A stretch of DNA of 64,000 nucleotides, taken from the NCBI GenBank assembly GCA_902589175.1, contig CACIRX010000002.1, positions 54,783 through 118,782 on the forward strand, read 5' to 3'. Below are positions 12,658-32,037 of this stretch, in pieces (the stretch's first letter is position 1; the number at the start of each line of letters is the position of its first letter). Under the pieces are notes generated by a model. The model saw only the letters and a program-made list of their open reading frames with translations, was not told the DNA's origin and did not search any database. The position numbers were made by a program, and so were the translations under genes. The stretch is from an uncultured Pelagibacteraceae bacterium. Its GTDB lineage: Bacteria; Pseudomonadota; Alphaproteobacteria; Pelagibacterales; AG-422-B15.

Positions 12658-13296
12658 TTAATCGTAAAATCGAAGAATAAAATATGCAATTAAGAGTCCA
12701 ATTAATTGCATAAAAATAAACATCAACACGTGCTGTGGATCTATACCGGTAAATGTGTTGGTGAATGATCTACTGATCGTGACAGCTGGATTGGCAAATG
12801 ACGTTGAAGATGTGAACCAGTAAGCCCCAGTTATATATAAAGCCACCGCTATTGCTGGATCTCTTTTTGCCTTTAGTGTGAGCACAATTGTAATTAATAA
12901 GCCTATTGTTGCAACCACTTCAGAGACATGAATATTAATTCCTGTTCTTTCTTTAGTTGAAAATTCAATAAATAAATCATCAAAAATATAATTTGCTAAA
13001 ATGACTCCAGAAGTGCCACCCACTAGTTGAAAAATGATAAATAATATCATCGTTACGTTATTAATATCTGATTTAAATCTAAAATAAAGTGTAACAACTG
13101 GATTAAAATGAGCTCCAGATATAGGACCAAATATTGATATTATCACGTAAAGCATTGCTCCTGTTGCTATTGCATTAGCAAGCAATACAACACCTTCATT
13201 TGTAGGAGATAGATTTTCGGCCATTATCCCTGATCCTACTACCGAGAAAACAAGTAAGAGTGTACCCAGATATTCAGAAAGTATTTTTTTAGGCAT
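12658..13296 (-). CDS. MIP/aquaporin family channel, AqpS-like
   Basis: Two NPA-type boxes (HFNPVV, FANPAV); adjacent to arsC. Confidence 0.85.
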   Translation of the reverse strand: MPKKILSEYLGTLLLVFSVVGSGIMAENLSPTNEGVVLLANAIATGAMLYVIISIFGPISGAHFNPVVTLYFRFKSDINNVTMILFIIFQLVGGTSGVILANYIFDDLFIEFSTKERTGINIHVSEVVATIGLLITIVLTLKAKRDPAIAVALYITGAYWFTSSTSFANPAVTISRSFTNTFTGIDPQHVLMFIFMQLIGLLIAYFILRFYD

Positions 13297-13725
13297 TTAT
13301 TTAAGCAAATTTTCTTTTATTAATTGATCAATATAATCAAATGTAGATCTAAAAAACTTTTTGTGATCGACTTCGTTTAAGTTCTGTTTAACGGGGTCTT
13401 CAATATTGAAATGAAATGTTTTTGGAGCACCCGGCCAGATCGGACATGTTTCTTTAGCGGCATTTCCACACACAGTAACGACATAATCCATAGAGGGAGA
13501 GTTGGGCTCACCAAATACGTCCCAACTTTTACTATAGAGTTTCTCAGTCGGTATTTTCATATCATCTAATAAATCGAGTGTTTTAGGATTTATTATTCCT
13601 GAAGGTGTGCTACCAGCGCTATAGCCTTTCAGACTTTCACTATATTTATAATTGGTAATTGCCTCAGCTATAATGCTTCTGGCTGAATTTTGCGTACATA
13701 AATATAAAACATTTTTAATGCTCAT
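13297..13725 (-). CDS. arsC: Arsenate reductase, LMW-phosphatase type
   Basis: CTQNSARS P-loop; VCGNAAKETCPIWPGAP. Confidence 0.88.
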   Translation of the reverse strand: MSIKNVLYLCTQNSARSIIAEAITNYKYSESLKGYSAGSTPSGIINPKTLDLLDDMKIPTEKLYSKSWDVFGEPNSPSMDYVVTVCGNAAKETCPIWPGAPKTFHFNIEDPVKQNLNEVDHKKFFRSTFDYIDQLIKENLLK

Positions 13726-14423
13726 ATACCAAGAGAATATCCAGCAGATCTAATTGTTCTAATTGGGTCGTATTCAAATCCTTCGTTTAATGCTTTTCTT
13801 AATCTTCTGATATGAACATCAACTGTTCTAGGCTCGACATATGGACTTGTAGTCCATACATAATCTAATAATTGTTGTCTTGAAAATACTTTACCTTGAT
13901 TTTCCATTAAAAAACGCAATAAATTAAATTCCGTTGGTCCAAGACTTATTTCTGTTTTATCCCTGGTGACACGATGCGTTGAAACATCTAATTGAATTCC
14001 CTTATAAGTAAGAACTTCATTATAAAAAATAGGTCTTAAGCGTTTAAGTACTGCTTTAATTCTTGCTACTAACTCATTGACTGAAAATGGTTTTGTTATG
14101 TAGTCATCAATTTCAGTTTCAAATGCTCTTAATTTATCTTCTTCTTCTCCTTTAGCTGTGAGCATAATTAAAGGAATGTTCTTTGTAGTTTTATCTTTAC
14201 GTACTCGTCTACACAATTCTAACCCAGAAATATTTGGGAGCATCCAGTCAACGATTATGAGATCGTATTTAATATCACCAAATATACTATCCAATGCGCT
14301 ATCGCCATCAAAGCATACGTCTACATCAAATCCACTAGCTGTGAGATTGTATTTTAATAATTCAACTATTGAGACTTCATCCTCAATTACTAGGATTTTA
14401 GGTTTCATTACACCTTTTCCCAC
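13722..14423 (-). CDS. phoB: Phosphate regulon response regulator PhoB
   Basis: Receiver plus OmpR-type wHTH; adjacent to phoU/pst. Confidence 0.95.
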   Translation of the reverse strand: MGKGVMKPKILVIEDEVSIVELLKYNLTASGFDVDVCFDGDSALDSIFGDIKYDLIIVDWMLPNISGLELCRRVRKDKTTKNIPLIMLTAKGEEEDKLRAFETEIDDYITKPFSVNELVARIKAVLKRLRPIFYNEVLTYKGIQLDVSTHRVTRDKTEISLGPTEFNLLRFLMENQGKVFSRQQLLDYVWTTSPYVEPRTVDVHIRRLRKALNEGFEYDPIRTIRSAGYSLGI

Positions 14424-15100
14424 TTAATTCTTTTTTCCGACTTACGTTCTAAGGCTTGACCAGTTGTAATGAAGTGAATGTCTTCAGCAATATTTTGAAC
14501 ATAATCTCCTATTCTCTCTATGTTTTTAGCAATCGACAATAAATGTGAACAGCCTGTAATTGTATCTGGGTCTTCTGCCATCGTCTTAAGAAGATCCCTG
14601 TAAATTGATAAATACAATTCATCAATATCGCCGTCTAAATCCCAAGCATTAATTGCTAGCGTATCTGATTTTTGAACGAAGGCATCTAAAACATTTTTTA
14701 TCATTCTTTGAACGTTCTCACCCATATTGACAATTTCTGAAACCGGCGTGTCGGGCATATTTATTTTTACATTTGCAACTCTTTTAGCAATATTGGTAGC
14801 GTGATCACCCATTCTCTCGAGATCGTTTGCAATGCTTAGTGCCGAAAGTACGGTTCTTAAATCATTAGCAAGCGGTTGCCTCATTGCAATTACTTTGTAT
14901 GTTAAAGCATCAATTTCCTTTTCTAAGGCATCTATTTTATTATCATCTCTTAAAATTTCTTCTGCAAAAGCAGTATCTTTATCACCCAAAGCAACAAGAG
15001 AATTGTGAAGCTGTGTTTCAACCAATCCTCCCATTTTAATTAATGTACTATTTATTAAATCTAATTGCTCATCATAAGATGAAACTATGTGTTCACTCAT
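14408..15100 (-). CDS. phoU: Phosphate signalling protein PhoU
   Basis: PhoU-type sequence (MRQPLANDLRTVLSALSIANDLERMGDHATNIAKR). Confidence 0.96.
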   Translation of the reverse strand: MSEHIVSSYDEQLDLINSTLIKMGGLVETQLHNSLVALGDKDTAFAEEILRDDNKIDALEKEIDALTYKVIAMRQPLANDLRTVLSALSIANDLERMGDHATNIAKRVANVKINMPDTPVSEIVNMGENVQRMIKNVLDAFVQKSDTLAINAWDLDGDIDELYLSIYRDLLKTMAEDPDTITGCSHLLSIAKNIERIGDYVQNIAEDIHFITTGQALERKSEKRIKWEKV

Positions 15101-15861
15101 TAACCAAACCTCCCTGTTATATAATCTTGCGTTCTCTGATCTGATGGATTTGAAAAGATTGTTTCAGTCTTATCAACTTCAACTAATTTACCTAAATGAA
15201 AAAAACCTGTCCTTGATGAAACTCTAGCGGCTTGTTGCATCGAGTGTGTAACAATAATTATTGTATATTCTGTTTTAAGATCTCCCATTAATTCTTCAAT
15301 TCTAGCCGTAGCAATTGGGTCTAAAGCTGAACAAGGCTCATCCATTAGAATAATATCTGGATTTACGGATATAGCTCTTGCAATACACAATCTTTGTTGC
15401 TGTCCACCCGAGAGGCCTGTTCCCGCATCGTATAATCTATCTTTAACCTCATCAAAGAGAGCCGCTTTTTTTAGACTGGTAACAACAATTTCTTCTAAAT
15501 CAGATTTATGTTCTGCTATTCCATGTATTCTTGGACCATAAGCTACATTTTCAAAAATAGATTTTGGAAAGGGGTTCGGCTTTTGAAAAACCATGCCCAC
15601 CCGTTCTCTTAGTTGTTCAACTTGCATGTCTGGTGCATAAATATCGTTGCCATCGATTTCTATTTTTCCTTGTACTTTGCATATATCAATAACATCGTTC
15701 ATTCTATTTAAGCATCTAATAAAGGTTGATTTACCACAACCTGATGGACCTATTAAAGCAGTGACTTGTTTTTCTTCCATGTACATGGAAACATCGAAGA
15801 GTGCCTGTTTCTCTCCATAATAAACATTCAAGTTATCTGCTTTTATTTTTATACTTTTCAT
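15100..15861 (-). CDS. pstB: Phosphate ABC transporter ATPase PstB
   Basis: ABC ATPase motifs [18 protein letters not shown]; synteny. Confidence 0.97.
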
Positions 15862-15869
15862 ATTCTATT

Positions 15870-17153
15870 TTACCATTTTGTTTCAAATTTTCTTCTAATT
15901 AATACTGCAGCTAAATTCATTAAAATTAAAAATCCAAGTAACATCATAATTGTAGCTGAAGTTTTTTCAACATAACCTCTTTCTGCGCTTTCTGACCATA
16001 AATAAACCTGAACTGGCAAAGAGGCAGAAGCATCCAGCGGTGTTTGTGGAACATCTACAACAAATGCCACCATACCAATTAATAATAATGGCGCAGTTTC
16101 TCCAAGTGCTTGAGCAAGGCCTATAATTGTACCTGTTAATGCACCAGGCATTGCTACAGGAACTACATGATGCATTACTGCTTGCATTTTGGTTGCTCCG
16201 ACTGCTAATGCTCCTTCTCTTATTGATGGTGGCACCGCCCTTAATGAGGCTCTAGTTGCAATAATTATTGTTGGTAGGGTCATTAAAGATAAGACTATGC
16301 CTCCAACCAGTGGTGTTGACCTTGGCAATCCAAATGTATTTAAAATAATACCAAGCCCCAATAAGCCAAATACAATAGAAGGTACCGCTGCTAAATTATT
16401 AATATTAATTTCAATAAAATCGGTAACTCTATTTTTTGGTGCAAATTCCTCAAGATAAATAGCTGCAAAAATTCCAATAGGAAAAGACAAAATCAAAACT
16501 ACCAAAATTGTGAATAAAGAACCTACTATTGAACCTCCTACTCCTGCCAGTTCAGGTTCTCGGCTGTCACCCCTCATTAAAAATGGTAGATTGAATTCAT
16601 AGCTGACAAGTCCCCTATCTACAAGGTCATCAAAAAATAAAAGTTGAATATCTTTAATTCTTCTTTTGTCTTCATCTAAGTCCCTTGGGTAGTTTCCTTT
16701 ATTAACCTGATCTACATCGTCGGAGGCAGTTAAATATATTGTTTCTGTTTCATTTATATTTGACTTATTCGATTTTAAAAATTCTCTTATTTCTTGCTCA
16801 AATTCAATACTGAATAATCGTATCAACATTTTCTTATCTTTTTTCTCTTCAATATCTGGGAAAAGTCCATAAATAGCCTTTTTGGAAAAAGAATACATTG
16901 ACAGGTTGTTAATATCCTCTGAACTCATTTCAGAAAATTGTGTCGTGTCTTCAATAAGATTTAAAAAAGGTACATCTACCTGGATAACAGTTCTATAAAA
17001 TGCTGAATAGCCAGATGAAAATATATTTAGAAATAAAATAAGCACCCATGCAAGCGCAAAGCTCATTGCACCAATACAATAAATCCTAAATCTTTTCTCT
17101 GAATTTAGCCTTTTATTTAAACTATTTATTCTTTGTTCTATTCTATCAGTCAT
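15870..17153 (-). CDS. pstA: Phosphate ABC transporter permease PstA
   Basis: PstA permease domain; synteny. Confidence 0.94.
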   Translation of the reverse strand: MTDRIEQRINSLNKRLNSEKRFRIYCIGAMSFALAWVLILFLNIFSSGYSAFYRTVIQVDVPFLNLIEDTTQFSEMSSEDINNLSMYSFSKKAIYGLFPDIEEKKDKKMLIRLFSIEFEQEIREFLKSNKSNINETETIYLTASDDVDQVNKGNYPRDLDEDKRRIKDIQLLFFDDLVDRGLVSYEFNLPFLMRGDSREPELAGVGGSIVGSLFTILVVLILSFPIGIFAAIYLEEFAPKNRVTDFIEININNLAAVPSIVFGLLGLGIILNTFGLPRSTPLVGGIVLSLMTLPTIIIATRASLRAVPPSIREGALAVGATKMQAVMHHVVPVAMPGALTGTIIGLAQALGETAPLLLIGMVAFVVDVPQTPLDASASLPVQVYLWSESAERGYVEKTSATIMMLLGFLILMNLAAVLIRRKFETKW

Positions 17154-18537
17154 ATCTCTCCGTATATTTTTTTACGACCTGTAAAGCTATAAAATTTAGA
17201 GCCAATGTAACAACGAACAAGGTTAAACCCAAAGCAAAAGCTGACTGTGTTTTTGGGCTATCAAATTCTTGATCACCGATTAAAATAACAACAATCTGAG
17301 TAGTAATTGTAGTTGCCGCATCAAGCGGATTAGCTGTTAATTTTGCATTTAATCCTGCAGCCATAACAACAATCATTGTCTCCCCAATCGCTCTTGAGAC
17401 AGCTAATAAAAAAGAACCTACAATACCTGGCAACGCAGCTGGCAATAATACTTTAACAATTGTTTCCCTTTTGGTTGCTCCCATGGCATAAGAGCCTTCT
17501 CTTAAACTTTGAGGTACAGATTTTATTACATCATCAGAAAGTGATGAAATAAATGGTATTATCATTATTCCCATAACAAATCCCGCAGCTAGAGCGCTTT
17601 CAGAAGAAACAGTAAGTCCAGCACCCTGACCGATATCTCTCACTAAAGGTGCAACAGTTAACGCTGCAAAAAATCCGTATACAACCGTTGGAATACCAGC
17701 AAGAATTTCAATAATTGGCTTAGCCCAATCTCTGACTTTTGGAGAAGCGTATTCAGACATATAAATGGCTGTGAGTAAACCAACTGGGACTGAGACACAC
17801 ATTGCAATTAATGCAATAAGAAATGTTCCAGCAAATAATGGAACAGCGCCAAATGCATTGGCCAAGTCTCTTGTATCAAGATCTCCAGCTTCTCTTACAA
17901 AAACTCTTTGAGGACTCCAATTTAATCCAAATAAAAAATCGGTTATTGGAACTTGAGAAAAAAAACGCAACGTTTCATATAATAAAGAAAAAATTATTCC
18001 AACAGTGGTCATTATAGCGACAAGTGAGCATGTAAAATACAAGACTAGTAAAAATTTCTCGACAATCTTTCTAGAATTAAGTTTGTTATTAATATTGAAT
18101 AATGAGTAAAGAACCAGTAAACCTGACAACCCAAGAACTGTAACATAAGTTAAGTTTTCACTCGTCTTATTAATATAATTTAATTTATTTACGGCACCAT
18201 TTATAAGAATAGTATTTTCATCAAAAAGTTTTATGCCCAATGCAGTGTTTTCGATTTGGGTAAATAATAAACTTAGTTCTGTTTCTGTATAACTGCCAAG
18301 TGCTATGAAATCACTTAATACATATTGCTCAATAAAAAATGATTTAAACGAAGTAATCATCAACAGTATCAATAACGCTGGCACAACAGCCCATAGAGCT
18401 ACGTAGTACCCATAATAATGACTAAGTGATTTAAGATTTTTTTGATTTGAAGTCCTAAGATTTTTTGCTCTTAAATTTCCTAGAAAATAGCTGGCGATAC
18501 CAATTAGAATAATTAAAGAAATTAATATAAATCCCAT
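17146..18537 (-). CDS. pstC: Phosphate ABC transporter permease PstC
   Basis: PstC permease domain; synteny. Confidence 0.94.
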   Translation of the reverse strand: MGFILISLIILIGIASYFLGNLRAKNLRTSNQKNLKSLSHYYGYYVALWAVVPALLILLMITSFKSFFIEQYVLSDFIALGSYTETELSLLFTQIENTALGIKLFDENTILINGAVNKLNYINKTSENLTYVTVLGLSGLLVLYSLFNINNKLNSRKIVEKFLLVLYFTCSLVAIMTTVGIIFSLLYETLRFFSQVPITDFLFGLNWSPQRVFVREAGDLDTRDLANAFGAVPLFAGTFLIALIAMCVSVPVGLLTAIYMSEYASPKVRDWAKPIIEILAGIPTVVYGFFAALTVAPLVRDIGQGAGLTVSSESALAAGFVMGIMIIPFISSLSDDVIKSVPQSLREGSYAMGATKRETIVKVLLPAALPGIVGSFLLAVSRAIGETMIVVMAAGLNAKLTANPLDAATTITTQIVVILIGDQEFDSPKTQSAFALGLTLFVVTLALNFIALQVVKKYTERYD

Positions 18538-18560
18538 GCTTCACCATAATGCTTATTTAA

Positions 18561-18591
18561 CAACTGAGACAAGCGTAACTTGCCTCAGTTG
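18561..18591 (-). promoter_or_regulatory. Intercistronic hairpin between pstS and pstC
   Basis: 13-bp stem CAACTGAGGCAAG/CTTGTCTCAGTTG with one G-T wobble; no strong T-tract. Confidence 0.75.
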
Positions 18592-18608
18592 TGGATTAAT
18601 CAAGTCTT

Positions 18609-19682
18609 TTAGTCCAGATCGAGTGTTTCTAAGTTAGCAACTCTTGATCTTATATCAGATGCATCACCATCAGATAATGCAACTAAACCGATATCAGTTA
18701 GATATCCATCTTCACCCATTGCATCAGGACTTGTGAAAGCTTCAAGAAACTCTTCAATTCCTGGCACAACACCTACGTGAGCTTTTTTCACATAGAACTG
18801 TAATGGTCGTGCAATTGGGTAAGAATAATCCTGGATACCAGCAAGCGTTGGCTGAATTCCAGTGATCGAAGCAGATTTAATTTTATCTTCGTTAGCTAGA
18901 AGGTAGCTGTAACCAAAGTAACCAAATCTTTCTGGATCCTCTGATAATTTTTGAACTATTAAAGTGTCGTTTTCACCAGCTTCAATAACTCTTCCATCTT
19001 CTCGCACTACTGCACATTTTTTCTTTGCCTTTTCACCGGCATTTTCCCAAAGTGTGTATGCGCCTGCTGCTTTGCAACCTTTTTTCATAATAAGTGAATT
19101 CCAAGCATCTCTTGTACCAGATGTCGGCGGTGCAACTAGGATTTCAATTTTATGATCAGGTAATGAAGCATCAATGTCAGACCATTTTTCATATGGGTTA
19201 TCAATTAAATTTCCAGCAATGACATTACCCTCGCCATCTTTTGCAACATTAGCGGGTACTTTTTCTGCAATTGCTAAAAATAAATGCTCTTGCGTAAAGT
19301 CTGCATCGGCAGCATCTAAGCTATGAGCAAGCGTCAAGCCGTCATTACCAATTGTAATTTCAATTATATCAGTAACGCCATTTTTAGCGCATAATGCCTT
19401 TTCTTTACTTTTAATTTTACGAGACGCATTGGTAATATCGGGGTGATCGGTACCAACTCCAGCACAGAATAATTTCATTCCACCGCCCGTACCAGTACTC
19501 TCAATCACTGGTGTATTAAATCCAGTCTTACCAAATCTCTCAGCAACTACGGTTGCATAAGGGTATACAGTCGACGAACCAACGATTTTTATAGTATCTC
19601 TAGCTTGAGAACTGAATGTAAAAATTGATGAAGCGAAAACTGCAATAATCATTATTTTGATTAATCTCATTATTTTCTCCAT
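18609..19682 (-). CDS. pstS: Phosphate ABC transporter substrate-binding protein PstS
   Basis: Signal peptide, IVGSSTVYPYATVVAERF motif. Confidence 0.95.
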   Translation of the reverse strand: MEKIMRLIKIMIIAVFASSIFTFSSQARDTIKIVGSSTVYPYATVVAERFGKTGFNTPVIESTGTGGGMKLFCAGVGTDHPDITNASRKIKSKEKALCAKNGVTDIIEITIGNDGLTLAHSLDAADADFTQEHLFLAIAEKVPANVAKDGEGNVIAGNLIDNPYEKWSDIDASLPDHKIEILVAPPTSGTRDAWNSLIMKKGCKAAGAYTLWENAGEKAKKKCAVVREDGRVIEAGENDTLIVQKLSEDPERFGYFGYSYLLANEDKIKSASITGIQPTLAGIQDYSYPIARPLQFYVKKAHVGVVPGIEEFLEAFTSPDAMGEDGYLTDIGLVALSDGDASDIRSRVANLETLDLD

Positions 19683-19718
19683 TAAGGTTTAGAATCATTA
19701 CTAACTTATTTTGCCTTG

Positions 19719-19747
19719 ATTACAAAATTATAACGTTTTTGTTACAT
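19719..19747 (-). promoter_or_regulatory. Candidate Pho box upstream of pstS
   Basis: Minus-strand 7-mers ATGTAAC, ACGTTAT, TTGTAAT at exact 11-nt spacing. Confidence 0.65.
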
Positions 19748-20485
19748 TTTTATGAACGTCGGTTTCTCGTTGAAATTTAAGTAACTGATTTTATTAAGAT
19801 ATTTAAAGGGAAGGTAAATTAGTGAGAATATAATAACTGTTAACACAGCCAAATAAGGAATATGCATTGGAGGAGATGGAAATATATCCAAAAGTGTGTT
19901 CGCGGCAGGCGTAATCATTAAATACCAATAATTTACATCTTTAAAGAATTGCGAAATATAAATATTTAATCCATAAATTATAGGTAATAAGCAAATGGCA
20001 AACAAAAGAACTCGTAAAACTGACCACCAGGTTAATTGAACCTTCGTGCATACACAGGCATATATTACACCAAGCAGTAATAAACCATGGCCAAAATAAT
20101 AAGTAATATATTCTGCATCAGGAAATGAGAAATCCAAATCTGGTGTAATGATTGCAAGGAAATTTCCACTTAATCCAAAAAAATAACCTACTTCGAAAAA
20201 GAATTTAATATTTGTAAACACATATAACCCCATTGATATTGCGGCTATATGGCAAATGTGTAATGGCAATACGTCATAAATAGAATGATCATAAAATATC
20301 ACTCGATAAAATGGTTTTATTATCTCATGAGAAATTAATATAAAACCAATTAACAAAAAAATTGATCTAGTTACATTTTTATTATTTATAAATCGAACAA
20401 AGAAAGGAAATAAAATTGAAATAGTCACAATTGTGAAAATTGTTGCCAAATGATGATAACCAAACAAAACAAATTGAGTCGCCAT
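19742..20485 (-). CDS. TIGR02206/YwaF-like integral membrane protein
   Basis: 247 aa, multiple TM segments; lies between phoR and pstS. Confidence 0.65.
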   Translation of the reverse strand: MATQFVLFGYHHLATIFTIVTISILFPFFVRFINNKNVTRSIFLLIGFILISHEIIKPFYRVIFYDHSIYDVLPLHICHIAAISMGLYVFTNIKFFFEVGYFFGLSGNFLAIITPDLDFSFPDAEYITYYFGHGLLLLGVIYACVCTKVQLTWWSVLRVLLFAICLLPIIYGLNIYISQFFKDVNYWYLMITPAANTLLDIFPSPPMHIPYLAVLTVIIFSLIYLPFKYLNKISYLNFNEKPTFIKM

Positions 20486-20525
20486 ATCTTATTTTAACCA
20501 AGATTTGTTAAACTATTATTGCACC

Positions 20526-21620
20526 TTATGAAATGGGTGCAATAGGCAATTCTACTGAAAATGTACTGCCTTGATTTATTTCACTTTTTATATCTAAATG
20601 TCCTCTGTGCTTATTTAAAATATGTTTAACTATGGTTAACCCTAAACCCGTTCCACCGATTTCTTTTGATCTTGCTGCATCTACACGGTAAAAACGTTCA
20701 GTTAATCTTGTTAGATGTTTTGGGTGAATGCCTTCGCTTTCATCTTTGACGCTGATTTTTGATACAAGTTGTGGAAATAGCTTTTTATTATCACTATGAT
20801 CAGTTTGCTTTTTGATTTTTTCTGCCAATATGTCTATTGAGCTGTTTAGTTTTCCATATTTAATCGAATTATCTATAATATTTGTAAAGACCTGTACCAA
20901 CTCATCTTCATTGCCCAATACAAATAAACCCTCACTAAGTTGATGGTTGACTCTTATTTTAATATTCTTTGTCAATGCGTATTCTTTTAGACTTTCCGCC
21001 ACATTATCTATTGTTTTCAATAAATTAACTTTTTTGGTTGGATGAATATGCTCATCAGACTCTATTTTAGATACGACAATTAAATCATCTATCAGTCTTT
21101 TCATGCGAATTGTTTCTTTATCCATAATACCAAGAAACTTAGACATAGATTTTTGATCATCTTTTGCTGGACCTCTTATAGTCTCCAAAAAACCCATGAT
21201 TGTAGCAAGTGGTGTTTTCAGCTCATGACTTACGTTTGCAATGAAAGAAGAGCGTACTCTTTCAATATTTTTTAAAGGAGTTATATTTTTCATGAGAATA
21301 ACATAATTGTCTCTTGTGTTAGTTAATTGGAGATGATTTTTCTCATAACTAATCTCCACATTGTAAAAATTTGTTGATCTAGGTGATAAACTTCCGTACT
21401 CACTATTATATTCAATTATTTCTGTTTCTTTATTTTTATATACATTTTCTAATGCCTCTAAAACTATCGGGCTTCTAATTAAGTTTGTTATATTTTGACC
21501 AGTATAATTATTTTCAAATAAATCTATTGAATGGGAATTTTGAAAAACAATTTTTTGATCGGAATCAAGAACGATGATTGCATCTTCTAGCTTATTAAGA
21601 ATAAAACTGATATTTTCCAT
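20526..21620 (-). CDS. phoR: Phosphate regulon sensor histidine kinase PhoR-like, no apparent TM segment
   Basis: PAS-like N-terminus, HisKA (FIANVSHELKTPLATIMGFLETIRGP), HATPase (GGTGLGLTIVKHIL). Confidence 0.9.
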   Translation of the reverse strand: MENISFILNKLEDAIIVLDSDQKIVFQNSHSIDLFENNYTGQNITNLIRSPIVLEALENVYKNKETEIIEYNSEYGSLSPRSTNFYNVEISYEKNHLQLTNTRDNYVILMKNITPLKNIERVRSSFIANVSHELKTPLATIMGFLETIRGPAKDDQKSMSKFLGIMDKETIRMKRLIDDLIVVSKIESDEHIHPTKKVNLLKTIDNVAESLKEYALTKNIKIRVNHQLSEGLFVLGNEDELVQVFTNIIDNSIKYGKLNSSIDILAEKIKKQTDHSDNKKLFPQLVSKISVKDESEGIHPKHLTRLTERFYRVDAARSKEIGGTGLGLTIVKHILNKHRGHLDIKSEINQGSTFSVELPIAPIS

Positions 21621-21623
21621 TGA

Positions 21624-23117
21624 TTAAACAAATATAATCTTTTGTGATAATTTTTTGTGCTTTGAAAGCATTAAAATAAATTTATTAAATCTACTGTTTA
21701 AAAGTTCTGAATAGTTTTTTGGGATAGAAAATATCAAATTTGAATCTTTTACATAAATACTGATATTGCTGTAATTAAAATTAGATAATTTTCCAATTTC
21801 ATATACAATTCTTAAGAATAATCCAAGCTCAATACTGCTTAATAATTTATTTTTATTTACAACTTTTCTATAATCTTTTATCTCATTTAGATCTATTCCA
21901 TTGTGAAAAACATAAATAACAGTAGCGAGTGTAACTCTGTCAGAATGGCTAAACTTTAATATTTCTGATTTTAATATTTGTTTAAATACAAACAATCCCC
22001 TCTCGTCACGAGCTATACTGTCTCCCGTTGATAAATAACTTATAGAGGACACTCTTATTCTTTTATTTAAATAGGATTTTCTTTTAAAAAAATTATTTGT
22101 GAATAATTTAATATTTTCATAATTTACGGTGCTAGGATTTAATTCGTTAGAAATTGCAGCAACTTTTAATGATTGATATTCAAGCGGATCGCTATTTGAG
22201 CTTAAGTTTATTTTATTAGAAATGTAGCCTTCTCTAATAGCTGTGTATGAAATAACTACTTGCCTAGCAGAGGTCTTATTTATTATTTCCAACGCGACCT
22301 TGGCTGCGTATCGTATAAATGGTGTTTTATCTTTAGTAATCAATGAATATTGTAGCAAGTCCTTTTTTTTAAAATTTGAAACTTCTTCAAGCATCGATAC
22401 AAAGTTATCAAAATCAGGTTTGAAATGATGAATGACTTTGAGAGGATAGCTGTACTTATCAAAATATAATTTAACTAAAGCTCTCCACGTACCGCCCGTA
22501 AGGATTACCCTTTTAAACTTATTTTCATTAAGCCATTCAGTATTTTGTAGAGAGTTTTTGAATTTTTCTATTATTTTTTTATTTTTAGTTTTTGCTCTGT
22601 GAACACCTAGTGGCAAGGACAATGTATTCATTATTTCTTTCTTTTTAACTTCTGCGAGTTCTAAGCTGCCACCGCCGAGATCGGCAACGAGACCACTTGA
22701 TTTTTTTAGACCGACAATACATCCCATGGCAGAAAACTTTGCTTCTTCATCGCCAGTTAATACATGTATTTTCTTTTTAAAAATATTTTCTACATCAGCA
22801 ACAAATGCTTCTCTATTTTTTGCGACACGGACAGCTTCTGTTGCAAAAATTTCATAATTTTTAATATTTGATGAGTCAATCAATTCCTTTATATAATAGA
22901 ACGCATTCATTGCTTTTTTTATAGAGTCTTTATTAAGCTTATTGTTTTTAATTAGATCTTTACCTAACCCACATGAAATTTTTTTGTTAAAAATAGCTAT
23001 CTGATTATACCTAAAGTTTTCAAAAATTTGAAAACGAACTGTGTCAGAGCCAATATCGATTATTGCAATACGTTCGTCATTAAAAAATAATTTTTTTTTG
23101 GGAATTAAATTATTCAT
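21624..23117 (-). CDS. ppx: Exopolyphosphatase / Ppx-GppA family
   Basis: IAIIDIGSDTVRFQIF, GLVADLGGGSLELAEV motifs; adjacent to ppk. Confidence 0.9.
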   Translation of the reverse strand: MNNLIPKKKLFFNDERIAIIDIGSDTVRFQIFENFRYNQIAIFNKKISCGLGKDLIKNNKLNKDSIKKAMNAFYYIKELIDSSNIKNYEIFATEAVRVAKNREAFVADVENIFKKKIHVLTGDEEAKFSAMGCIVGLKKSSGLVADLGGGSLELAEVKKKEIMNTLSLPLGVHRAKTKNKKIIEKFKNSLQNTEWLNENKFKRVILTGGTWRALVKLYFDKYSYPLKVIHHFKPDFDNFVSMLEEVSNFKKKDLLQYSLITKDKTPFIRYAAKVALEIINKTSARQVVISYTAIREGYISNKINLSSNSDPLEYQSLKVAAISNELNPSTVNYENIKLFTNNFFKRKSYLNKRIRVSSISYLSTGDSIARDERGLFVFKQILKSEILKFSHSDRVTLATVIYVFHNGIDLNEIKDYRKVVNKNKLLSSIELGLFLRIVYEIGKLSNFNYSNISIYVKDSNLIFSIPKNYSELLNSRFNKFILMLSKHKKLSQKIIFV

Positions 23118-25239
23118 AACGCATCAGAGAGAGTAGTTTCTTAGGCTTTTTATTTCCTTTTAATTTTCCTCTACCTGACAAACTTGGATTTGACATGAAG
23201 TATTTATGTGCATTAAACGTCTTACCTTTTTGTTTAACTCTTTTGTATGTGCCATCATCGTTCATTATCCACGTTTGCTCATTATCTAGGAAATTGGCAA
23301 CCATTATTTGATTCAGTATTTGCTCATGGACAGTGGAGTTCTTTATGGGGGTCAATATTTCCACTCTTCTATCCAGATTTCTAGGCATAAGATCAGCTGA
23401 TCCAATTAAAACGGTGTTATTTTTTGATGGTATATTAGATTCGTTAGCAAAACAGAAGATTCTAGCATGCTCTAAATATCGGCCAATGATACTCTTTACA
23501 ACAATATTTTCAGAAAGTTTTTTAACTCCTGGTCTTAAGCAGCAAATTCCTCTTATGAATAATTCAATTTTTACTCCCGCCGCAGAGGCCTCATAAAGCT
23601 TGGAGATCATCTGAGGGTCAACCAAAGAGTTCATTTTAAGCCAGATGCCAGATGGTTTACTTTTCTTTGCATTTTTAATTTCGTTATCAATCATTGCATT
23701 AATTTGACTTCGCATTGCGGGTGGAGAGAGCACTATATCATTTAATTTGATTGGAGAAGCATACCCAGTCATGTAATTAAAGATTCTCTCAATATCTTTG
23801 CATATTTTTTCATCTGTCGTAAATAATGACAGGTCTTCATAAGTTTTAGCGTTTTTTGGATGATAGTTTCCTGTGCCTACATGTACATAGCTTTTTAATT
23901 TGCCTGCTTCTCGTCTGATAATTAGACTTGCCTTTGCATGCGTCTTCAATTGAGCAAAACCATATACAATTTGAACTCCTGATTTCTCCATTTGGTTGGC
24001 AAGAGCTAAATTAGACTCCTCATCAAATCTTGCTTTGATCTCAACAACAGCTGTAACACTCTTGCCGTTATCTGCTGCTTTTGTAAGGGCTTTTATAATA
24101 GGACTATCAACAGTGGTTCTGTAAATCGTTTGTTTAATAGCTACTACTTTTGGATCTATAGCAGCCTGATTTAAATAATCAACTACAACATCAAAAGTTT
24201 CATATGGATGATGGACAACAAAATCTTTTGATCTGATGGCAGCAAAACAATTATTATCAAATTGCTTTAACCTTTCAACAGGTCTTGATATGAATTTTTT
24301 AAATTTTAATTTTGGTCTATTTAAATTATGAATCTGCGATAAATCTTGTAAACCAACATGCTTTGATAGAGCAATGACTTGCGCATCTTTAAGATTCAAA
24401 TTTTTTTTTAAAAAGTTTTTCTTTTTAGATGATATGTTTTTTAAAATTTCTAGCCTTACTATTTCCCCTCTTTTTCTTTTTGTTAAAGCTTTTTCAAAAT
24501 ATTTAATCACATCTTCATCATCCTCATATTCGTAATCGATATCACTGTCTCTTATAACTCTGAATATTGCACTATCCAACAATTTAGAATTTGGGAATAG
24601 ATCTTTAAAAAAATATCTAATAATATCTTCAACAAATAAATAGTATTCTTTTTTACCCTCTTGAATAAACACAAGTCTGTTTAATGCTCGCGGAACAATG
24701 ATTACCGAATTAAACGGTTTATTTGAACCTCCTGCCACTAAACTCAATGAAATACACAGTCCTTCATTTGGAATAAATGGAAATGGATGCACTGGGTCAA
24801 TTGAAATTGGCGTTAATATAGGCAGTATTTCTTCATTGAAAAGTTTTTTGAGATTTTTTTTCAATCTTATATTTAATTTATTAGGCGTAATATGAATTAT
24901 TTTTTCTGCATTTAATTCTCTAACAAGCTTTCTAAAAGAAACATCCTGATTCTTAAATATTTTTGCTGATGCATTTTGTGCTGCTTTTAATTGCTGATGT
25001 CCAGTCATGCCGTCATGGCTTATTTTGTTTGGATTATTTTCTATTTCATCCAAAAGACTTGGTATTCTTACCATATAAAATTCGTCCAGATTACTTGCAG
25101 AAATTGAAAGAAAATTAACTCTTTCGATTAACGGCACTTTATTATCATTAGCCTCATCTAAAACTCTTTGGTTAAAAAGAAGCCATGATAATTCTCTGTT
25201 TAAGAACTTATTGTCTGAATTTGTATTTTTTCTTATCAT
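23110..25239 (-). CDS. ppk: Polyphosphate kinase Ppk1
   Basis: FLNRELSWLLFNQRVLDEA, KAVVEIKARFDEESN, THAKASLIIRRE motifs. Confidence 0.96.
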   Translation of the reverse strand: MIRKNTNSDNKFLNRELSWLLFNQRVLDEANDNKVPLIERVNFLSISASNLDEFYMVRIPSLLDEIENNPNKISHDGMTGHQQLKAAQNASAKIFKNQDVSFRKLVRELNAEKIIHITPNKLNIRLKKNLKKLFNEEILPILTPISIDPVHPFPFIPNEGLCISLSLVAGGSNKPFNSVIIVPRALNRLVFIQEGKKEYYLFVEDIIRYFFKDLFPNSKLLDSAIFRVIRDSDIDYEYEDDEDVIKYFEKALTKRKRGEIVRLEILKNISSKKKNFLKKNLNLKDAQVIALSKHVGLQDLSQIHNLNRPKLKFKKFISRPVERLKQFDNNCFAAIRSKDFVVHHPYETFDVVVDYLNQAAIDPKVVAIKQTIYRTTVDSPIIKALTKAADNGKSVTAVVEIKARFDEESNLALANQMEKSGVQIVYGFAQLKTHAKASLIIRREAGKLKSYVHVGTGNYHPKNAKTYEDLSLFTTDEKICKDIERIFNYMTGYASPIKLNDIVLSPPAMRSQINAMIDNEIKNAKKSKPSGIWLKMNSLVDPQMISKLYEASAAGVKIELFIRGICCLRPGVKKLSENIVVKSIIGRYLEHARIFCFANESNIPSKNNTVLIGSADLMPRNLDRRVEILTPIKNSTVHEQILNQIMVANFLDNEQTWIMNDDGTYKRVKQKGKTFNAHKYFMSNPSLSGRGKLKGNKKPKKLLSLMRYE

Positions 25240-25249
25240 TATTAAAGTG

Positions 25250-25765
25250 ATGAAGCATTTATATCTATTGAGACACGCGAAATCAAGTTGGGATGATCCT
25301 AGCTTAAGTGATTATGAGAGACCTCTTTCTAATAGAGGAAAAAACAATTGTAACAAAATTGAAACATTTCTTTCACAAAAAAAAATAATACCTGATATTT
25401 CCTATGTTTCATCTGCAAGAAGAACTGTCGACACATTTAATTTAGTTCTTGGAAAAACACTAAGGACAAGCTCGAAGGTTGTTTTTAGCAAGAAATTATA
25501 TTTATGTGACGAAATCTACCTTTTTGACTTAATCAAAAACACTGAAAATAATTATTCAAATCTTTTAATTGTTAATCATGAACCGACAATTCGAAATTTA
25601 ACAATTGATTTAAGTGCGCCCTCTCAAGATGAGAAATATTTAAATATTAAAAATAAATTTCCTACAGGAAGTCTTGCAATACTCACATCTGATTTAAAAG
25701 ATTGGAGTGAATTAAAATATAATTCATTTAAAGTTACAGATTTTGTTCGACCTAGATTCTTATAG
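25250..25765 (+). CDS. sixA: SixA-type phosphohistidine phosphatase
   Basis: MKHLYLLRHAKSSWDDPSLSDYERPLSNRG; internal ATG at 25250 preferred over 25211. Confidence 0.85.
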   Translation: MKHLYLLRHAKSSWDDPSLSDYERPLSNRGKNNCNKIETFLSQKKIIPDISYVSSARRTVDTFNLVLGKTLRTSSKVVFSKKLYLCDEIYLFDLIKNTENNYSNLLIVNHEPTIRNLTIDLSAPSQDEKYLNIKNKFPTGSLAILTSDLKDWSELKYNSFKVTDFVRPRFL

Positions 25766-25766
25766 A

Positions 25767-26267
25767 TTATATTGATGCAGCGTAATCAATTATGCTATTT
25801 TGGATTTTTATTAATACATCGTTATCGGAGGTTGATTTTATCCAATTATTATTTTTTAATTCTTGAATGAATATTCTTATGTCTAAGGAATCTGCTGTTA
25901 AATCATCACCAACAATATAAACATCAATTTTAATGCGGCTGTTTATATCTTTTTCAATTGAAAACCAATCAGTCAATATAAAGTAGTCTTCTTTGTTGGC
26001 TTCCAACACCGGCATGAATGACAACTTTGCAAGTGAAGCCTTCCATAGCTTTTCTTTATTATTAATTAAATTGTCATTGTTGATTGAGAGTGATTTACTT
26101 ATTTCATCGTTTATCCATTTATTAAGGCTTATCCCCCTTGAGTTAGGATCTGCTGCGTCTTCTCCTCTTATATGGCCAGAGTCTGCCCTTTCTATGCTTA
26201 ATGGAAGTTGAGCGCAGTTGGTGAGAGTGACTAAAATAAAAATGAAAAAAAAATATGCTTTCATCAC
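25767..26267 (-). CDS. DUF3576-like lipoprotein
   Basis: Lipobox-like LVTLTNCAQ; 166 aa. Confidence 0.6.
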   Translation of the reverse strand: MMKAYFFFIFILVTLTNCAQLPLSIERADSGHIRGEDAADPNSRGISLNKWINDEISKSLSINNDNLINNKEKLWKASLAKLSFMPVLEANKEDYFILTDWFSIEKDINSRIKIDVYIVGDDLTADSLDIRIFIQELKNNNWIKSTSDNDVLIKIQNSIIDYAASI

Positions 26268-26303
26268 TTATTAATATTACAAGATTGTTACATATTTATT
26301 AAA

Positions 26304-26336
26304 ATAACCAGAGTGCATTATTTGCACTCTGGTTAT
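26304..26336 (-). terminator. Intrinsic terminator downstream of porin
   Basis: 14-bp perfect stem ATAACCAGAGTGCA/TGCACTCTGGTTAT, followed on the minus strand by TTTTAATAAAT. Confidence 0.75.
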
Positions 26337-26373
26337 CATGATCAATTAACTTGAAAGGATTAAAAAAAGTTAA

Positions 26374-27306
26374 TTAAAAGCCAATTTTGTAGCCAATGAA
26401 GAAGTTTTCAACATCCTCATTTGAACCCACAGAAGCAACATGATATTCAAGTGATGCTTTTACGCCTCCACCGAATGACTTTTGCAAGGAAGCAATAGAG
26501 CCATCGTCATCAGCCGTTGCGCCAGGATTATCTACATCAAAATATTCGTATTGAAAAGTTGCACCCAATCCAGGAATCTTTGGCGTTTTCACACCTACTA
26601 CTGTATAGCTGTCACCGCTATCTGAATCGTATAGACCATAACCAATCGTGTAACCTGCAAGTTTAGGTGCTTTAATACCAATCATATAGTTTTCATCCCC
26701 AGTTCTAGAGTCCGTATTGCCCTCATCGACAATGCCTCCTTTGACTGAAAAACCGGCGATCTTTCCAGATATTGAATAAGCCATTATGTCGTCATAACCA
26801 GCCGTTGTTCCAAATCCGATACCCGCTTTAACAGTAAATCCATTTATCTTAGGTGATGTGTAGACAATTTGGTTGCTATCATCAAAACCTGCTGCACCAG
26901 TAACGCCGTCACCATCTTCATAATCAGCGCTTAGGCCTTGAGGTAATTTTCTCGAGCTTGCAAATGATGATTTTACAGGATGGCTATCCATACTATCAAC
27001 GGGGCCGCCTGAGAGACCATTACCAAAAGAAACTGTGCCCATGTCAGAAATGAATGAAATATCAAAATCACCACCTCCACTAGACTCGTAAGCCATGACA
27101 CCTTCTATACCCATACCATTGTCTAATGTATCTGTGTAAGTCACGTATGCTGATTCTGTAATTGATATTCTTTCCTGAGACGCATAAGAATCTCCAGATC
27201 CCCACAAGCCATTAAAAGTACCGCCAACAGTTACATCTGCTTGCGCACTTGAAAGAGCCATTATACTAGCAAGTGCAGTCGTCGCACTTAAGATTTTGTT
27301 ATTCAT
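26374..27306 (-). CDS. Outer-membrane porin (Gram-negative)
   Basis: Signal peptide, repeated beta-strand pattern, C-terminal ...FFIGYKIGF. Confidence 0.85.
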   Translation of the reverse strand: MNNKILSATTALASIMALSSAQADVTVGGTFNGLWGSGDSYASQERISITESAYVTYTDTLDNGMGIEGVMAYESSGGGDFDISFISDMGTVSFGNGLSGGPVDSMDSHPVKSSFASSRKLPQGLSADYEDGDGVTGAAGFDDSNQIVYTSPKINGFTVKAGIGFGTTAGYDDIMAYSISGKIAGFSVKGGIVDEGNTDSRTGDENYMIGIKAPKLAGYTIGYGLYDSDSGDSYTVVGVKTPKIPGLGATFQYEYFDVDNPGATADDDGSIASLQKSFGGGVKASLEYHVASVGSNEDVENFFIGYKIGF

Positions 27307-27427
27307 ATATTACTCCATTAATTAATTAATAAATGAAGTCATACATGAGATTTCATAAAATTTTAGTTAAGTAAATATTAACAATTATTAAGGTCTTTTA
27401 AAATTTTGTTTCAGATAAATTAATGTT

Positions 27428-27456
27428 ATTTCAACTTTGTTAAAATTATATAACAG
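27428..27456 (-). promoter_or_regulatory. Candidate Pho box upstream of porin
   Basis: Minus-strand CTGTTAT, TTTTAAC, TTGAAAT at exact 11-nt spacing. Confidence 0.6.
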
Positions 27457-27586
27457 TTTATTTTTTTATATGTTTAAACGTGTTTTTTTTATTTCAAAAT
27501 TATTTCAATTTAATTTCTGATTATTAATTTTTTATTTCAAATTCATTAAGATGATTACTGTATAAAAAAATTTTTTTGAAGTGTTG

Positions 27587-28594
27587 TTATTTTGCAACGC
27601 GTGATGCAGTTTGATGTGACAAAAACAGCTTAGAAACCTCATGCCAATCAAATTTTTTACTATAATTTATACAATCTGTACGACTCACTTTTCTCGCCTT
27701 TTCAATTGAATTAATTAAATTATGATCAAGACAATTATGTTTAAAATTATTAAAAACATCAATTGGACCTGGAACAGGATATGCGGCCACGGGAAGTCCA
27801 CTGGCGAGAGCCTCGATCATGACCATTCCAAACGTATCTGTTTTACTTGGAAATACAAAGATATCTGAAGATGCATAGTACTGGGCCAGTTCATTTCCTT
27901 TCTTCGCTCCTACAAAAACTGCATCAGTATATTTTTTTTCTAATTTTTTCTTAGAGGGTCCATCACCTACAAGTAGTTTTGTGCCTTTTAAATTTAATTT
28001 AAGAAAATCTTCTAATGATTTTTCCTTAGATATTCTTCCTACATATAAATAAATTGGTTTTTCTAAATTGAGATCAATCTTGTTCTTCGGATTAAAAGCT
28101 TTTATATCAACGCCCCTGGACCATTTAACTGTCCTTTTAATTCCATGTGAATTAAGTTCATCTATAATTGAATTAGAGGATACCATTACTGCGCTAGAAT
28201 TTTTGTGAAACCATTTCAAAATTTTATATGTAAAAGATACAGGTATCTTAGCCATCGTGTTTATATATTCAGGAAATTTTGTACAATACGAGGTTGTAAA
28301 CGCATAATTATTCTTTGAACAATAATTCCTAACCGCTAAGCCAATAGGTCCCTCTGTAGCAACGTGTATAAAGTCAGGCTTAAACTTCTCAATGATCACG
28401 CCAATTTTGAACCAATGATTAATCGCAAGTTTTATTTCAGGATAAATAATCAGTGGAATTGTAATAAATTTATCTGGAGTTATGTACCTAACCTCATGTC
28501 CTTGACTTGTAAGTTTATCACCAAGTGTTTGATAAGTTCTAACAACACCATTTATTTGAGGTAGCCATGCGTCTGATGCGATGAGTATTTTCAA
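27587..28594 (-). CDS. GT4 glycosyltransferase, candidate Agt (P-stress glycolipid synthesis)
   Basis: GT4 features (SDAWLPQINGVVRT; PSKTDTFGMVMIEALASGLPVAAYPVPGP); directly downstream of plcP-like gene. Confidence 0.8.
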   Translation of the reverse strand: MKILIASDAWLPQINGVVRTYQTLGDKLTSQGHEVRYITPDKFITIPLIIYPEIKLAINHWFKIGVIIEKFKPDFIHVATEGPIGLAVRNYCSKNNYAFTTSYCTKFPEYINTMAKIPVSFTYKILKWFHKNSSAVMVSSNSIIDELNSHGIKRTVKWSRGVDIKAFNPKNKIDLNLEKPIYLYVGRISKEKSLEDFLKLNLKGTKLLVGDGPSKKKLEKKYTDAVFVGAKKGNELAQYYASSDIFVFPSKTDTFGMVMIEALASGLPVAAYPVPGPIDVFNNFKHNCLDHNLINSIEKARKVSRTDCINYSKKFDWHEVSKLFLSHQTASRVAK

Positions 28595-29413
28595 TTAACT
28601 TAATACCTTTACGGAGTCCTTATGTTTGTTGATAATTTCATACTTTTCAGCGATATCTTTCCAGAAAAGAATTTCCATTGATCCATCAAAATTTTCTATC
28701 ATAAAGGAGCAACTTTCTACCCAGTCCCCATCATTATAGTAATGAACTCCATTTATTATTCGATGTGAAGCATGATGAATATGTCCGCAAATAACTCCTT
28801 TTAGATTTTTCTTTTTTGCATAACCTGCAACTATTTCTTCGTACTTATTAATGTAAGAAACAGCATTTTTTACTTTTAATTTCAGATACTTTGAAAGCGA
28901 CCAATATTTCAAACCCAATAATAATCTTAATTGATTAAATCTTCTATTTAGCCATAAAGCTAAATCGTATGCGCTAGCGCCAAGATGGGCTAACCAGGGT
29001 GCGATATTGATAATTGAGTCAAATTTGTCTCCATGCAGTATAAGATATTCAGATCCATCTACTGTCTTATGTTTGATTTCATTAACTACTCTAATTTCGC
29101 CTAGTGTTATTGGCACAAATTTTCTAACAAGCTCATCATGATTTCCTGATACATAAAACACTTTAGTTCCATGTCGTGCTTTTCTTAGAATTTTTTGTAT
29201 TACATCACTGTGACTTTGTGGCCAGTACCATCTATTTTTAAGTCGCCACCCATCTATAATATCTCCAACTAAGTATAGGTAATCTGATCTGGTATTTTTT
29301 AAAAAATCAAGCAACTGTTCAGCTTGACAGCCTTTTGACCCTAAATGAATATCTGAAATAAATATGGAACGATATTTTAAGAGAGGAATAACATTATTTT
29401 TTTCGTTGACCAT
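28595..29413 (-). CDS. plcP: Calcineurin-like metallophosphoesterase, candidate PlcP phospholipase C
   Basis: Motifs SDIHLG, GDIIDG, GNHDE, HGDKFD, GHIHHA; adjacent GT4 gene; upstream Pho-box-like repeats. Confidence 0.8.
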   Translation of the reverse strand: MVNEKNNVIPLLKYRSIFISDIHLGSKGCQAEQLLDFLKNTRSDYLYLVGDIIDGWRLKNRWYWPQSHSDVIQKILRKARHGTKVFYVSGNHDELVRKFVPITLGEIRVVNEIKHKTVDGSEYLILHGDKFDSIINIAPWLAHLGASAYDLALWLNRRFNQLRLLLGLKYWSLSKYLKLKVKNAVSYINKYEEIVAGYAKKKNLKGVICGHIHHASHRIINGVHYYNDGDWVESCSFMIENFDGSMEILFWKDIAEKYEIINKHKDSVKVLS

Positions 29414-29493
29414 AAATTTGGTAAAAAAGAATCAATCTTCATTACATTACCAATAATTTATGAAAGATTTGTTAAGCCATACTTTCTAGAAAT

Positions 29494-29533
29494 CTGTCAT
29501 AAAATTTTAATATTCTTGTAATTTTTATGACAA
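29494..29533 (+). promoter_or_regulatory. Candidate Pho box cluster
   Basis: CTGTCAT (29494), TTTTAAT (29505), TTGTAAT (29516) at exact 11-nt spacing; ATGACAA (29527), the inverse of TTGTCAT, follows. Confidence 0.7.
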
Positions 29534-29555
29534 AATTAAAAATTATAATTTAATC

Positions 29556-29642
29556 ATTGAGTAACTAGACAGAAGACTGAACTTCCTCATTTAATCCTCC
29601 ACCCTTCCAAATATAAATGGGGAAGTTCTTCTCTTATTTCAA
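29556..29642 (+). ncRNA. Candidate Pho-regulated small RNA with CCUCC loop
   Basis: TATAAT at 29544-29549 downstream of Pho repeats; 14-bp stem GAACTTCCTCATTT/AAATGGGGAAGTTC (29579-29592/29615-29628, one wobble); loop AATCCTCCACCCTTCCAAATAT; U-rich 3' tail; no ORF. Confidence 0.4.
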
Positions 29643-29702
29643 TTAGGGTAATTTGTATATTGGGATCATTATAAGAAAAAAGAGGAAAAATCAGGATTTT
29701 AT

Positions 29703-29762: not shown

Positions 29763-30182
29763 TTAAAATGTTCTACCAATTCTCATTCCTGCCCTGTCGT
29801 ACAAGACATTCATCAGAATGAAGACAAGTATACTAGCCACCATAGGAACTGGATTAGCGCCCCCATCTTCGCCCATAAATAAAACAATTTGCCTTATAGA
29901 AGTAACAAAGGATCCAACCAACATCATTCTAAAAAACACTGTAGATTGTTCAATTGGTGCCAGTAAACATGCAGTAAAACCTACTGCAAAAACTATATAA
30001 ACCCACCCGAGATTTGCAAACAGCTGAATATGTGCTGCATCAACATCGCTCGGATTTGTTCCTATTCGCTCTGCAAAGGCTAATACCGGCTCATTGTCTA
30101 TAAACATAAAACCATAAAAGAGAAATAAAACTATTAAGAAACAAATTATTACTCTGCTTATTGTGTCTTCAACTTTAATCAT
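29763..30182 (-). CDS. Small integral membrane protein of unknown function
   Basis: 139 aa, about 4 TM segments. Confidence 0.65.
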   Translation of the reverse strand: MIKVEDTISRVIICFLIVLFLFYGFMFIDNEPVLAFAERIGTNPSDVDAAHIQLFANLGWVYIVFAVGFTACLLAPIEQSTVFFRMMLVGSFVTSIRQIVLFMGEDGGANPVPMVASILVFILMNVLYDRAGMRIGRTF

Positions 30183-30192
30183 TTTGTTCCTC

Positions 30193-30987
30193 CTAAAAAT
30201 TACTTTGGTTTCTGAAAAAGATAGTCAAAAATACAATGAAATTTAGAACTATAAAAAATGCCAATAATGGGTTACCACCATCGGGAAATGTCACACTTCC
30301 AACTAACATTGCACAAAAGAACATCGTTCCTGCAACTGCACTCATTGATACTAAAACTCCACTCAGTCCAGCTCTGAACTGATAAACAAGAGCAATCAGT
30401 ATAGCTATGTTTATCATAGTTATTCCTAATACACTGTGTTCAGATTGAGGATTGCTTTCTAATAGTGGAGATTGCTCAATAAAACCGCCTGGATATATGA
30501 AGTAAGAAACAACATTAAACAGCACTGCGGCAATTGCAATATATCCCATGATTTGAGTTGTTTTGTCAGTAACTCCAAACGGAGTTCCAGCTTTCTCAAT
30601 TGCGAGTGGATAACCAGCTCTAAATCTTGCTATGGCTAATAGCACAAACAAAATTATCCACGCATAAAGACCGGTATAGTTTTCTCCACCGCTTAGCTGC
30701 AATGACATCGCAACCCATATTAATTGAAGTAGAACGACAGGCAGTGCATAAGCAAAAAATGCCCTCTCTAACCCTTTGAAACCCATATATAGAATGCCTA
30801 CATAGGCTACAAAATTAACCGCTCCAAACCAATTTAAGAAAAATTCTGTAGTTAAGTTATCTTCGAATGTTGGATATCGATCAATCATGTAATCATAATT
30901 GAACATCATTATACATCCATAAACGAAGAATATAAGGCCTGAAATAAACATACAGGCTTTAATTACGTTATCGTCTGTTTTAAACAT
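30193..30987 (-). CDS. Integral membrane protein of unknown function
   Basis: 264 aa, multiple TM segments; apparently co-transcribed with 29763..30182. Confidence 0.65.
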   Translation of the reverse strand: MFKTDDNVIKACMFISGLIFFVYGCIMMFNYDYMIDRYPTFEDNLTTEFFLNWFGAVNFVAYVGILYMGFKGLERAFFAYALPVVLLQLIWVAMSLQLSGGENYTGLYAWIILFVLLAIARFRAGYPLAIEKAGTPFGVTDKTTQIMGYIAIAAVLFNVVSYFIYPGGFIEQSPLLESNPQSEHSVLGITMINIAILIALVYQFRAGLSGVLVSMSAVAGTMFFCAMLVGSVTFPDGGNPLLAFFIVLNFIVFLTIFFRNQSNF

Positions 30988-31155: not shown

Positions 31156-32037
31156 ATGCAATTGATTCAATTAATAATTGATGGTGTGGCCTCAGGATGC
31201 ATATATGGACTGGTGGCATTAGGATTTGTCTTAATTTACAAAGCTACAGAAACCATCAATTTTGCTCAAGGCGATATTCTTATGCTCGGAGCATTTGTGG
31301 CCTACTCACTTATTGGAATTTTAGGCATGGACTACCTCACTGGATTCGCTCTTACTGTTTTAATTATTGCTGTATTTGGGTTTTTCCTTGATGCCGTTGT
31401 AGTGAGACAGATTATTGGGCAGCCTGCATTTGCTACCGTAATGCTAACTATCGGTTTAGGTTTTATTTTTAGAGGATTTGCATCAATTTACTGGGGCACA
31501 GACATATTTTCATTTAGTACACCTTTCTCTGGAAAAATAACTGAATTTAACGGTCTTATAATTTCCTACGTAAACCTTTCTATAATAATTGGGACTGCAA
31601 TTCTAATGTCTGCACTTTATTTCTTTTTTACATTTTCAAAAATTGGTGTGGCAATGAGAGCGTCTTCAGAAAACCAATTAGCTGCTTACTATATGGGAAT
31701 ACCGGTTAAATTTATTTTTTCATTAATATGGTCAATTTCTGCAGGAGTTGCCGCCGTAGCGGGTGTACTACTCGCTCCAATTACATTGGTAGACACATCA
31801 ATCTCATTGATTGGTTTAAAAGCATTTGCTGCAGCTGTTCTAGGAGGATTTGGATCAATACCTGGAGCAATTGTTGGAGGCATTATAATAGGTATTGTCG
31901 AACAATTATGTGGAACTTACGAAAATTATTTGTTTGAAGGAGTGAGAGAAATATCTGCTTACCTCGTTCTTATCTTAACATTAATTATTTATCCAAGAGG
32001 TTTGTTCTCAGATAAAGCTGAGGTCAAAAAAGTTTAA
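31156..32037 (+). CDS. livH: Branched-chain amino acid-type ABC permease LivH
   Basis: GVASGCIYGLVALGFVLIYKATETINFAQGD. Confidence 0.92.
   Translation: MQLIQLIIDGVASGCIYGLVALGFVLIYKATETINFAQGDILMLGAFVAYSLIGILGMDYLTGFALTVLIIAVFGFFLDAVVVRQIIGQPAFATVMLTIGLGFIFRGFASIYWGTDIFSFSTPFSGKITEFNGLIISYVNLSIIIGTAILMSALYFFFTFSKIGVAMRASSENQLAAYYMGIPVKFIFSLIWSISAGVAAVAGVLLAPITLVDTSISLIGLKAFAAAVLGGFGSIPGAIVGGIIIGIVEQLCGTYENYLFEGVREISAYLVLILTLIIYPRGLFSDKAEVKKV

Follow-up and report, generated by a model that had tools for sequence, protein, structure and literature searches.

Small RNAs that expose a CCUCC motif have been described in the Rhizobiales, where the SmelA075 and SmelA099 sRNAs carry CCUCCUCCC loops and the CCUCC loops were described as anti-Shine-Dalgarno (anti-SD) motifs; AbcR1, CyaR and RNAIII were named alongside them (PMC3927594). 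The sRNA candidates of S. meliloti include RNAs with predicted PhoB sites and RNAs induced by phosphate starvation, the latter without an evident PhoB site (PMC2573895). Candidate structured RNAs have also been reported for Pelagibacter ubique, in a paper whose text does not contain the word 'phosphate' (PMC2704228).

The DNA analysed here, called the window, is a stretch of 64,000 nucleotides from a SAR11 single cell (Pelagibacteraceae). SAR11 cells rank among the most numerous in the sea and have few known regulators. The minus strand of the window carries a phosphate island of aquaporin- and ArsC-like genes, phoB, phoU, pstB, pstA, pstC, pstS, an acyltransferase gene, phoR, a gene for a Ppx/GppA protein and ppk, and the porin, agt and plcP genes come after the ppk end of this list. 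The plcP-agt pair swaps phospholipids for phosphorus-free lipids. Both phoB and phoR are encoded in this genome, in the same island as pst. The phosphate genes at 12658-29634 form a variable island: several plcP-less genomes of the genus are also without phoB and pstS, and others keep phoB-pst without agt-plcP. Other Pho-type sites were observed on the minus strand. A strong three-unit box (22.4 bits) at 26304-26276 sits immediately ahead of a DUF3576 lipoprotein-like gene (25767-26267) and suggests a further phosphate-regulated gene, and an array at 27456-27428, CTGTTATATAATTTTAACAAAGTTGAAAT, lies upstream of the porin gene (26374-27306), which is probably phosphate-induced. The features beyond the start of plcP, with which this report is concerned, are collected in Table 1.

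Table 1. Features of the agt-plcP module and of the predicted RNA gene at its edge (window coordinates).
Feature	Position	Strand	Remarks
agt-like glycosyltransferase gene	27587..28594	-	same module as plcP
plcP (metallophosphoesterase) gene	28595..29413	-	divergent neighbour of the RNA
PhoB-type box	29494..29533	+	four 7-mers at 11-nt period, the fourth weak
Units of the box	29494-29500; 29505-29511; 29516-29522; 29527-29533		CTGTCAT; TTTTAAT; TTGTAAT; ATGACAA
-10 hexamer	29544..29549	+	TATAAT; exactly 10 nt past the box in 21/21 genomes
Predicted short noncoding RNA	29556..29645	+	~90 nt with inferred ends; predicted from its place behind the -10, a conserved block and the lack of a plus-strand gene downstream
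Stem-loop	29579..29628	+	14-15 bp; arms 29579-29592 and 29615-29628
Hairpin loop	29593..29614	+	AATCCTCCACCCTTCCAAATAT; contains CCTCCACCCTTC at 29596-29607; anti-SD-like
T-rich tail, possible termination zone	29629..29645	+	from ~29634 host flank, not module

The sequence-only reading had proposed 7-mers at 11-nt spacing followed by a TATAAT at 29544, and both letters and spacings were correct. Scored against the E. coli consensus (CTGTCAT three times) the box was the best in the window, yet this score was reached in 18/100 shuffles; a simple Pho-pattern search of the genome gave mostly chance matches (266 against 175 in a reversed control). Given that the plain consensus is too weak alone, it was replaced by a unit model trained on eight pstS boxes drawn from several of the family's lineages, the site at 29494-29533 not being used in building it. 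With this model the site scored 19.5 bits, where 0.01 such sites are expected per shuffled 64-kb window, and ranked third in the window behind the pstS box, itself a training box, and the site before the DUF3576 gene. It resembles the pstS box of genome G005, TTGTCATAAAATTGTAATATTTATGTGAC. Read on the minus strand the box scored -7.2 bits. It thus reads well in the plus direction only and points at the hairpin rather than at plcP.

The direction of the box bears on the idea that it serves plcP-agt on the minus strand, by divergent or symmetric use, with no functional RNA being made. The gene plcP is a phosphate-starvation gene, plcP clusters have predicted Pho boxes (PMC4796936), a sigma-70-like TTGTCA-18-TAAAAT lies on the minus strand inside the box, and most sampled plcP genes of another SAR11 family each have a minus-facing box, of which TTTTAACAAATTTGTAAC is an example. 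However, besides the score of -7.2 bits, the best minus-facing two-unit match nearby reached 3.9 bits, what faces plcP in the studied genus is a degenerate match of 3.0 bits (GCTTAACAAATCTTTCAT), and the conserved plus-strand -10 and hairpin would be left unexplained. We consider this use of the box improbable, and the earlier suggestion that the box is partly palindromic and may also serve plcP is weakened, as it is not usefully palindromic for PhoB. In the other family (L139, L146, L131 and others) many sampled genomes have plcP and a diacylglycerol-kinase-like gene pointing away from each other, and the gap between the two holds two opposing Pho-type boxes, the second facing the kinase-like gene on the plus strand. 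Since PlcP yields diacylglycerol, the kinase-like gene may recycle or control it. By comparison, in the studied genus the RNA stands where the other family has the divergent gene.

A covariance model of the RNA matched 21 of 398 genomes of the order, and these are exactly the genomes of its own genus that have an intact plcP locus; G040, where plcP is just a fragment at the end of a contig, was not counted as having one. The box, the 10-nt spacing, the -10 and the hairpin are kept in all 21. No match was found in the other 377 order genomes searched, 169 of which carry a plcP homologue, nor were there further copies in this genome or in IMG/VR, and the site has no Rfam match. Among the searched genomes the RNA is confined to a single SAR11 genus. 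Within the box the 21 genomes differ by a minimum of seven changes, three in the 28 unit positions and four in the 12 linker positions. The hexamer occurs as TATAAT, TATTAT, TACAAT, TATAGT, TATCAT, TAGAAT and TATGAT; its changes, at least six, all fall at positions 3-5 while T1, A2 and T6 are invariant, for which the chance is ~0.016 if every position were equally changeable. This pattern is as in a working -10. No part of the module varies more than the eight bases that separate the hexamer from the RNA. From the box and the hexamer we infer PhoB binding and transcription towards the hairpin, with a 5' end close to the position given in Table 1.

The hairpin starts 29 nt past the hexamer. The 14-bp stem with one wobble and the 22-nt loop that had been noted were confirmed; the wobble is a U-G, and counting an A-U closing pair the stem is 15 bp and the loop 20 nt. 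Three places in the window have a hairpin with a stem of 14 bp or more, no more than one G-U and a loop of up to 25 nt; 10 dinucleotide shuffles gave none. The 86-nt RNA folded better than shuffles (z of -2.7 for type A and -3.7 for type B, the two sequence types described below), while a 125-nt piece including flank did not (z -0.36). The tail said to be U-rich is T-rich (TTCTTCTCTTATTT) but interrupted, and has no continuous run of T. A simple terminator scan, which accepts loops of 3-8 nt only, made no call at the hairpin. A small plus-strand open reading frame was rejected, the open frame having no preceding start codon and a 1-nt deletion in G035.

The RNA exists as two sequence types, a nearly uniform type A (18 genomes) and a type B (G020, G031, G015) that is ~22% diverged from it with the stem and the loop core kept. 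CCTCCAC in the loop is invariant in all 21 copies while other loop positions change, and the whole 12-mer CCTCCACCCTTC is identical in both types except for changes in G035 and G041. In the stem, one pair runs from G-C through G-U to A-U and another has gone from U-G to C-G. The stem is broken by one mismatch in G028 and by one deletion in G035. Covariation is weak, with one pair altered on both sides and 19 of 500 shuffles scoring as high. Between the types the RNA is more diverged (~22%) than the 4-fold sites of plcP (~10%). The plcP alleles are mosaics of two types, exchanged between species, and differ by just 0-11% at 4-fold sites among the RNA-carrying genomes. This indicates that the locus was exchanged recently, so the conservation of type A should not be over-read: much of the agreement across its 18 copies is recent common descent, and the exchange inflates it.

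An invariant loop might also reflect a feature of the opposite strand. The complement of the loop contains GGAGG-N5-ATG, with GGAGG and ATG 4-5 nt apart in all copies, which could start a tiny leader open reading frame of the plcP mRNA. The peptide is not conserved, however (MRKFSLLSSYSMIKL versus MGKFSFL), the promoter would need to sit outside the module where the types share no related sequence, and the upstream gene in the window has its own strong terminator at 29742-29708. The leader frame was rejected on these grounds, and we regard it as very improbable indeed.

The edge of the module was located by two comparisons. In genomes with neither plcP nor the RNA (G033, G032, G024) the sequence to the right of 29634 directly adjoins the acyltransferase gene. 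The type B copies lie in another genomic place, beside a ZnuA-like gene, and their homology to type A stops at 29627. The agt-plcP-box-hairpin module thus ends a few bases past the hairpin, which is the final element of the exchanged unit. Both contexts have a convergent gene next and no plus-strand gene downstream; in the window the next one begins at 31156, 1.53 kb on, which bears out the earlier statement that none follows for about 1.5 kb. Because the neighbours are convergent in both places the RNA is not the 5' leader of a downstream gene, and that candidate was ruled out. In the window two membrane-protein-like genes (139 and 264 aa, 29763-30987, minus strand) that have no Pfam or NCBIfam match follow the module, and diverged versions of this pair adjoin it in other type A genomes.

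This position is also what would be expected under the main rival explanation, in which transcription activated by PhoB escapes outward from the region of the plcP promoter and the hairpin does no more than stop it before the convergent neighbour, perhaps also halting read-through of the neighbour from the other side. The RNA would then be a by-product that has no target. The hairpin being exactly last in the module, the convergent neighbour in both contexts and the failure to find a target among the best genome matches and the window genes (below) all fit such a terminator. The stem is strong, but terminators do not usually have a 20-nt loop, neither strand has a perfect U tract, the sole strong Pho box faces the RNA and not plcP, and the constancy of CCTCCAC in 21/21 copies, while other loop positions vary, would be left unexplained. 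We think this explanation unlikely, though it is the strongest of the alternatives. The score of the box, the preserved spacing, -10 and hairpin, the position at the module end and the lack of a plus-strand gene beyond it together support a PhoB-driven stand-alone RNA, and we consider it highly probable that a PhoB-type promoter makes a short plus-strand RNA here. The box, the -10, the hairpin, their linkage and the absence of a downstream gene are supported by the genome comparison. The 3' end of the RNA would lie in the interrupted T-rich tail.

The function of the loop is less certain. The sequence-only reading had assigned an anti-SD loop to a PhoB-induced RNA that represses translation. 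The Pho-type promoter aimed at a conserved stand-alone hairpin RNA stood up to analysis, and so did the motif, with CCUCCAC kept in 21/21 copies, whereas translational repression is still a proposal. No match to Hfq (PF17209) was found in any of 54 family genomes, including those 99-100% complete, with control genomes positive, and none to ProQ (PF04352) in the same 54. The usual assumption of an Hfq-dependent sRNA thus does not hold in this host, and any pairing must proceed without either protein as far as the Pfam models detect them. A genome search for targets with GRRGGGTGGRGG gave 98 matches, about equal to the 89 of the reversed control, and the best complements of the loop are within coding sequence or antisense to the RNA gene itself. 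Against start sites in the window the loop was no better (mean -5.9 kcal/mol) than the reversed loop (-5.8). The target prediction that had been suggested for the CCUCC loop thus produced no convincing or conserved mRNA among the best genome matches and the window genes. An anti-SD role is plausible, and a trans-acting anti-SD regulator is a serious possibility to which we would give somewhat less than even weight.

The whole is, in our judgement, best explained by the following scheme, which we hold to be slightly favoured. On exhaustion of phosphate, PhoB would activate a promoter that fires away from plcP-agt and turn on a stand-alone noncoding RNA of ~90 nt, composed of a short single-stranded 5' part and then the 14-15-bp hairpin with its C-rich loop. 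Pairing of the CCUCCAC loop with G-rich ribosome-binding sites may then lower translation of some mRNAs without Hfq. In SAR11 the RNA gene would form the end of a lipid-remodelling module that can be exchanged. More tentatively, a phosphate-starvation riboregulator free of Hfq and ProQ may travel in this module, in which case gain of plcP-agt would bring with it an RNA that retunes translation in the host under phosphate limitation. If true, a phosphate-controlled RNA inseparable from lipid-remodelling genes would add a post-transcriptional layer to phosphorus saving, and would show that a metabolic module can carry a regulatory RNA along when it is exchanged.

The SAR11 RNA is probably a small RNA under phosphate control, new in itself but of a kind already known. 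Like SmelA075 and SmelA099 it exposes in its loop a CCUCC core complementary to the Shine-Dalgarno sequence and has a stand-alone gene; unlike them, with their three or four hairpins and CCUCCUCCC, it has a single hairpin and CCUCCACCCUUC (PMC3927594). There is no sequence homology between them, and the SAR11 host family shows no Hfq. Like the S. meliloti candidates it is an intergenic RNA of an alphaproteobacterium and has a predicted PhoB box, but it is not homologous to them and its box, -10 and hairpin are conserved together (PMC2573895). As with the candidates of Pelagibacter ubique, it is a SAR11 noncoding RNA obtained by comparison, though the present RNA was found only in one genus of another family (PMC2704228). 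The Type 2 plcP-agt clusters, for which Pho boxes are predicted, have the same lipid-remodelling genes in the same regulon, and no RNA gene is reported there in the available part of PMC4796936, unlike in the studied SAR11 genus. Where the studied genus has the RNA, many of the plcP genes sampled in the other SAR11 family are opposite a diacylglycerol-kinase-like gene.
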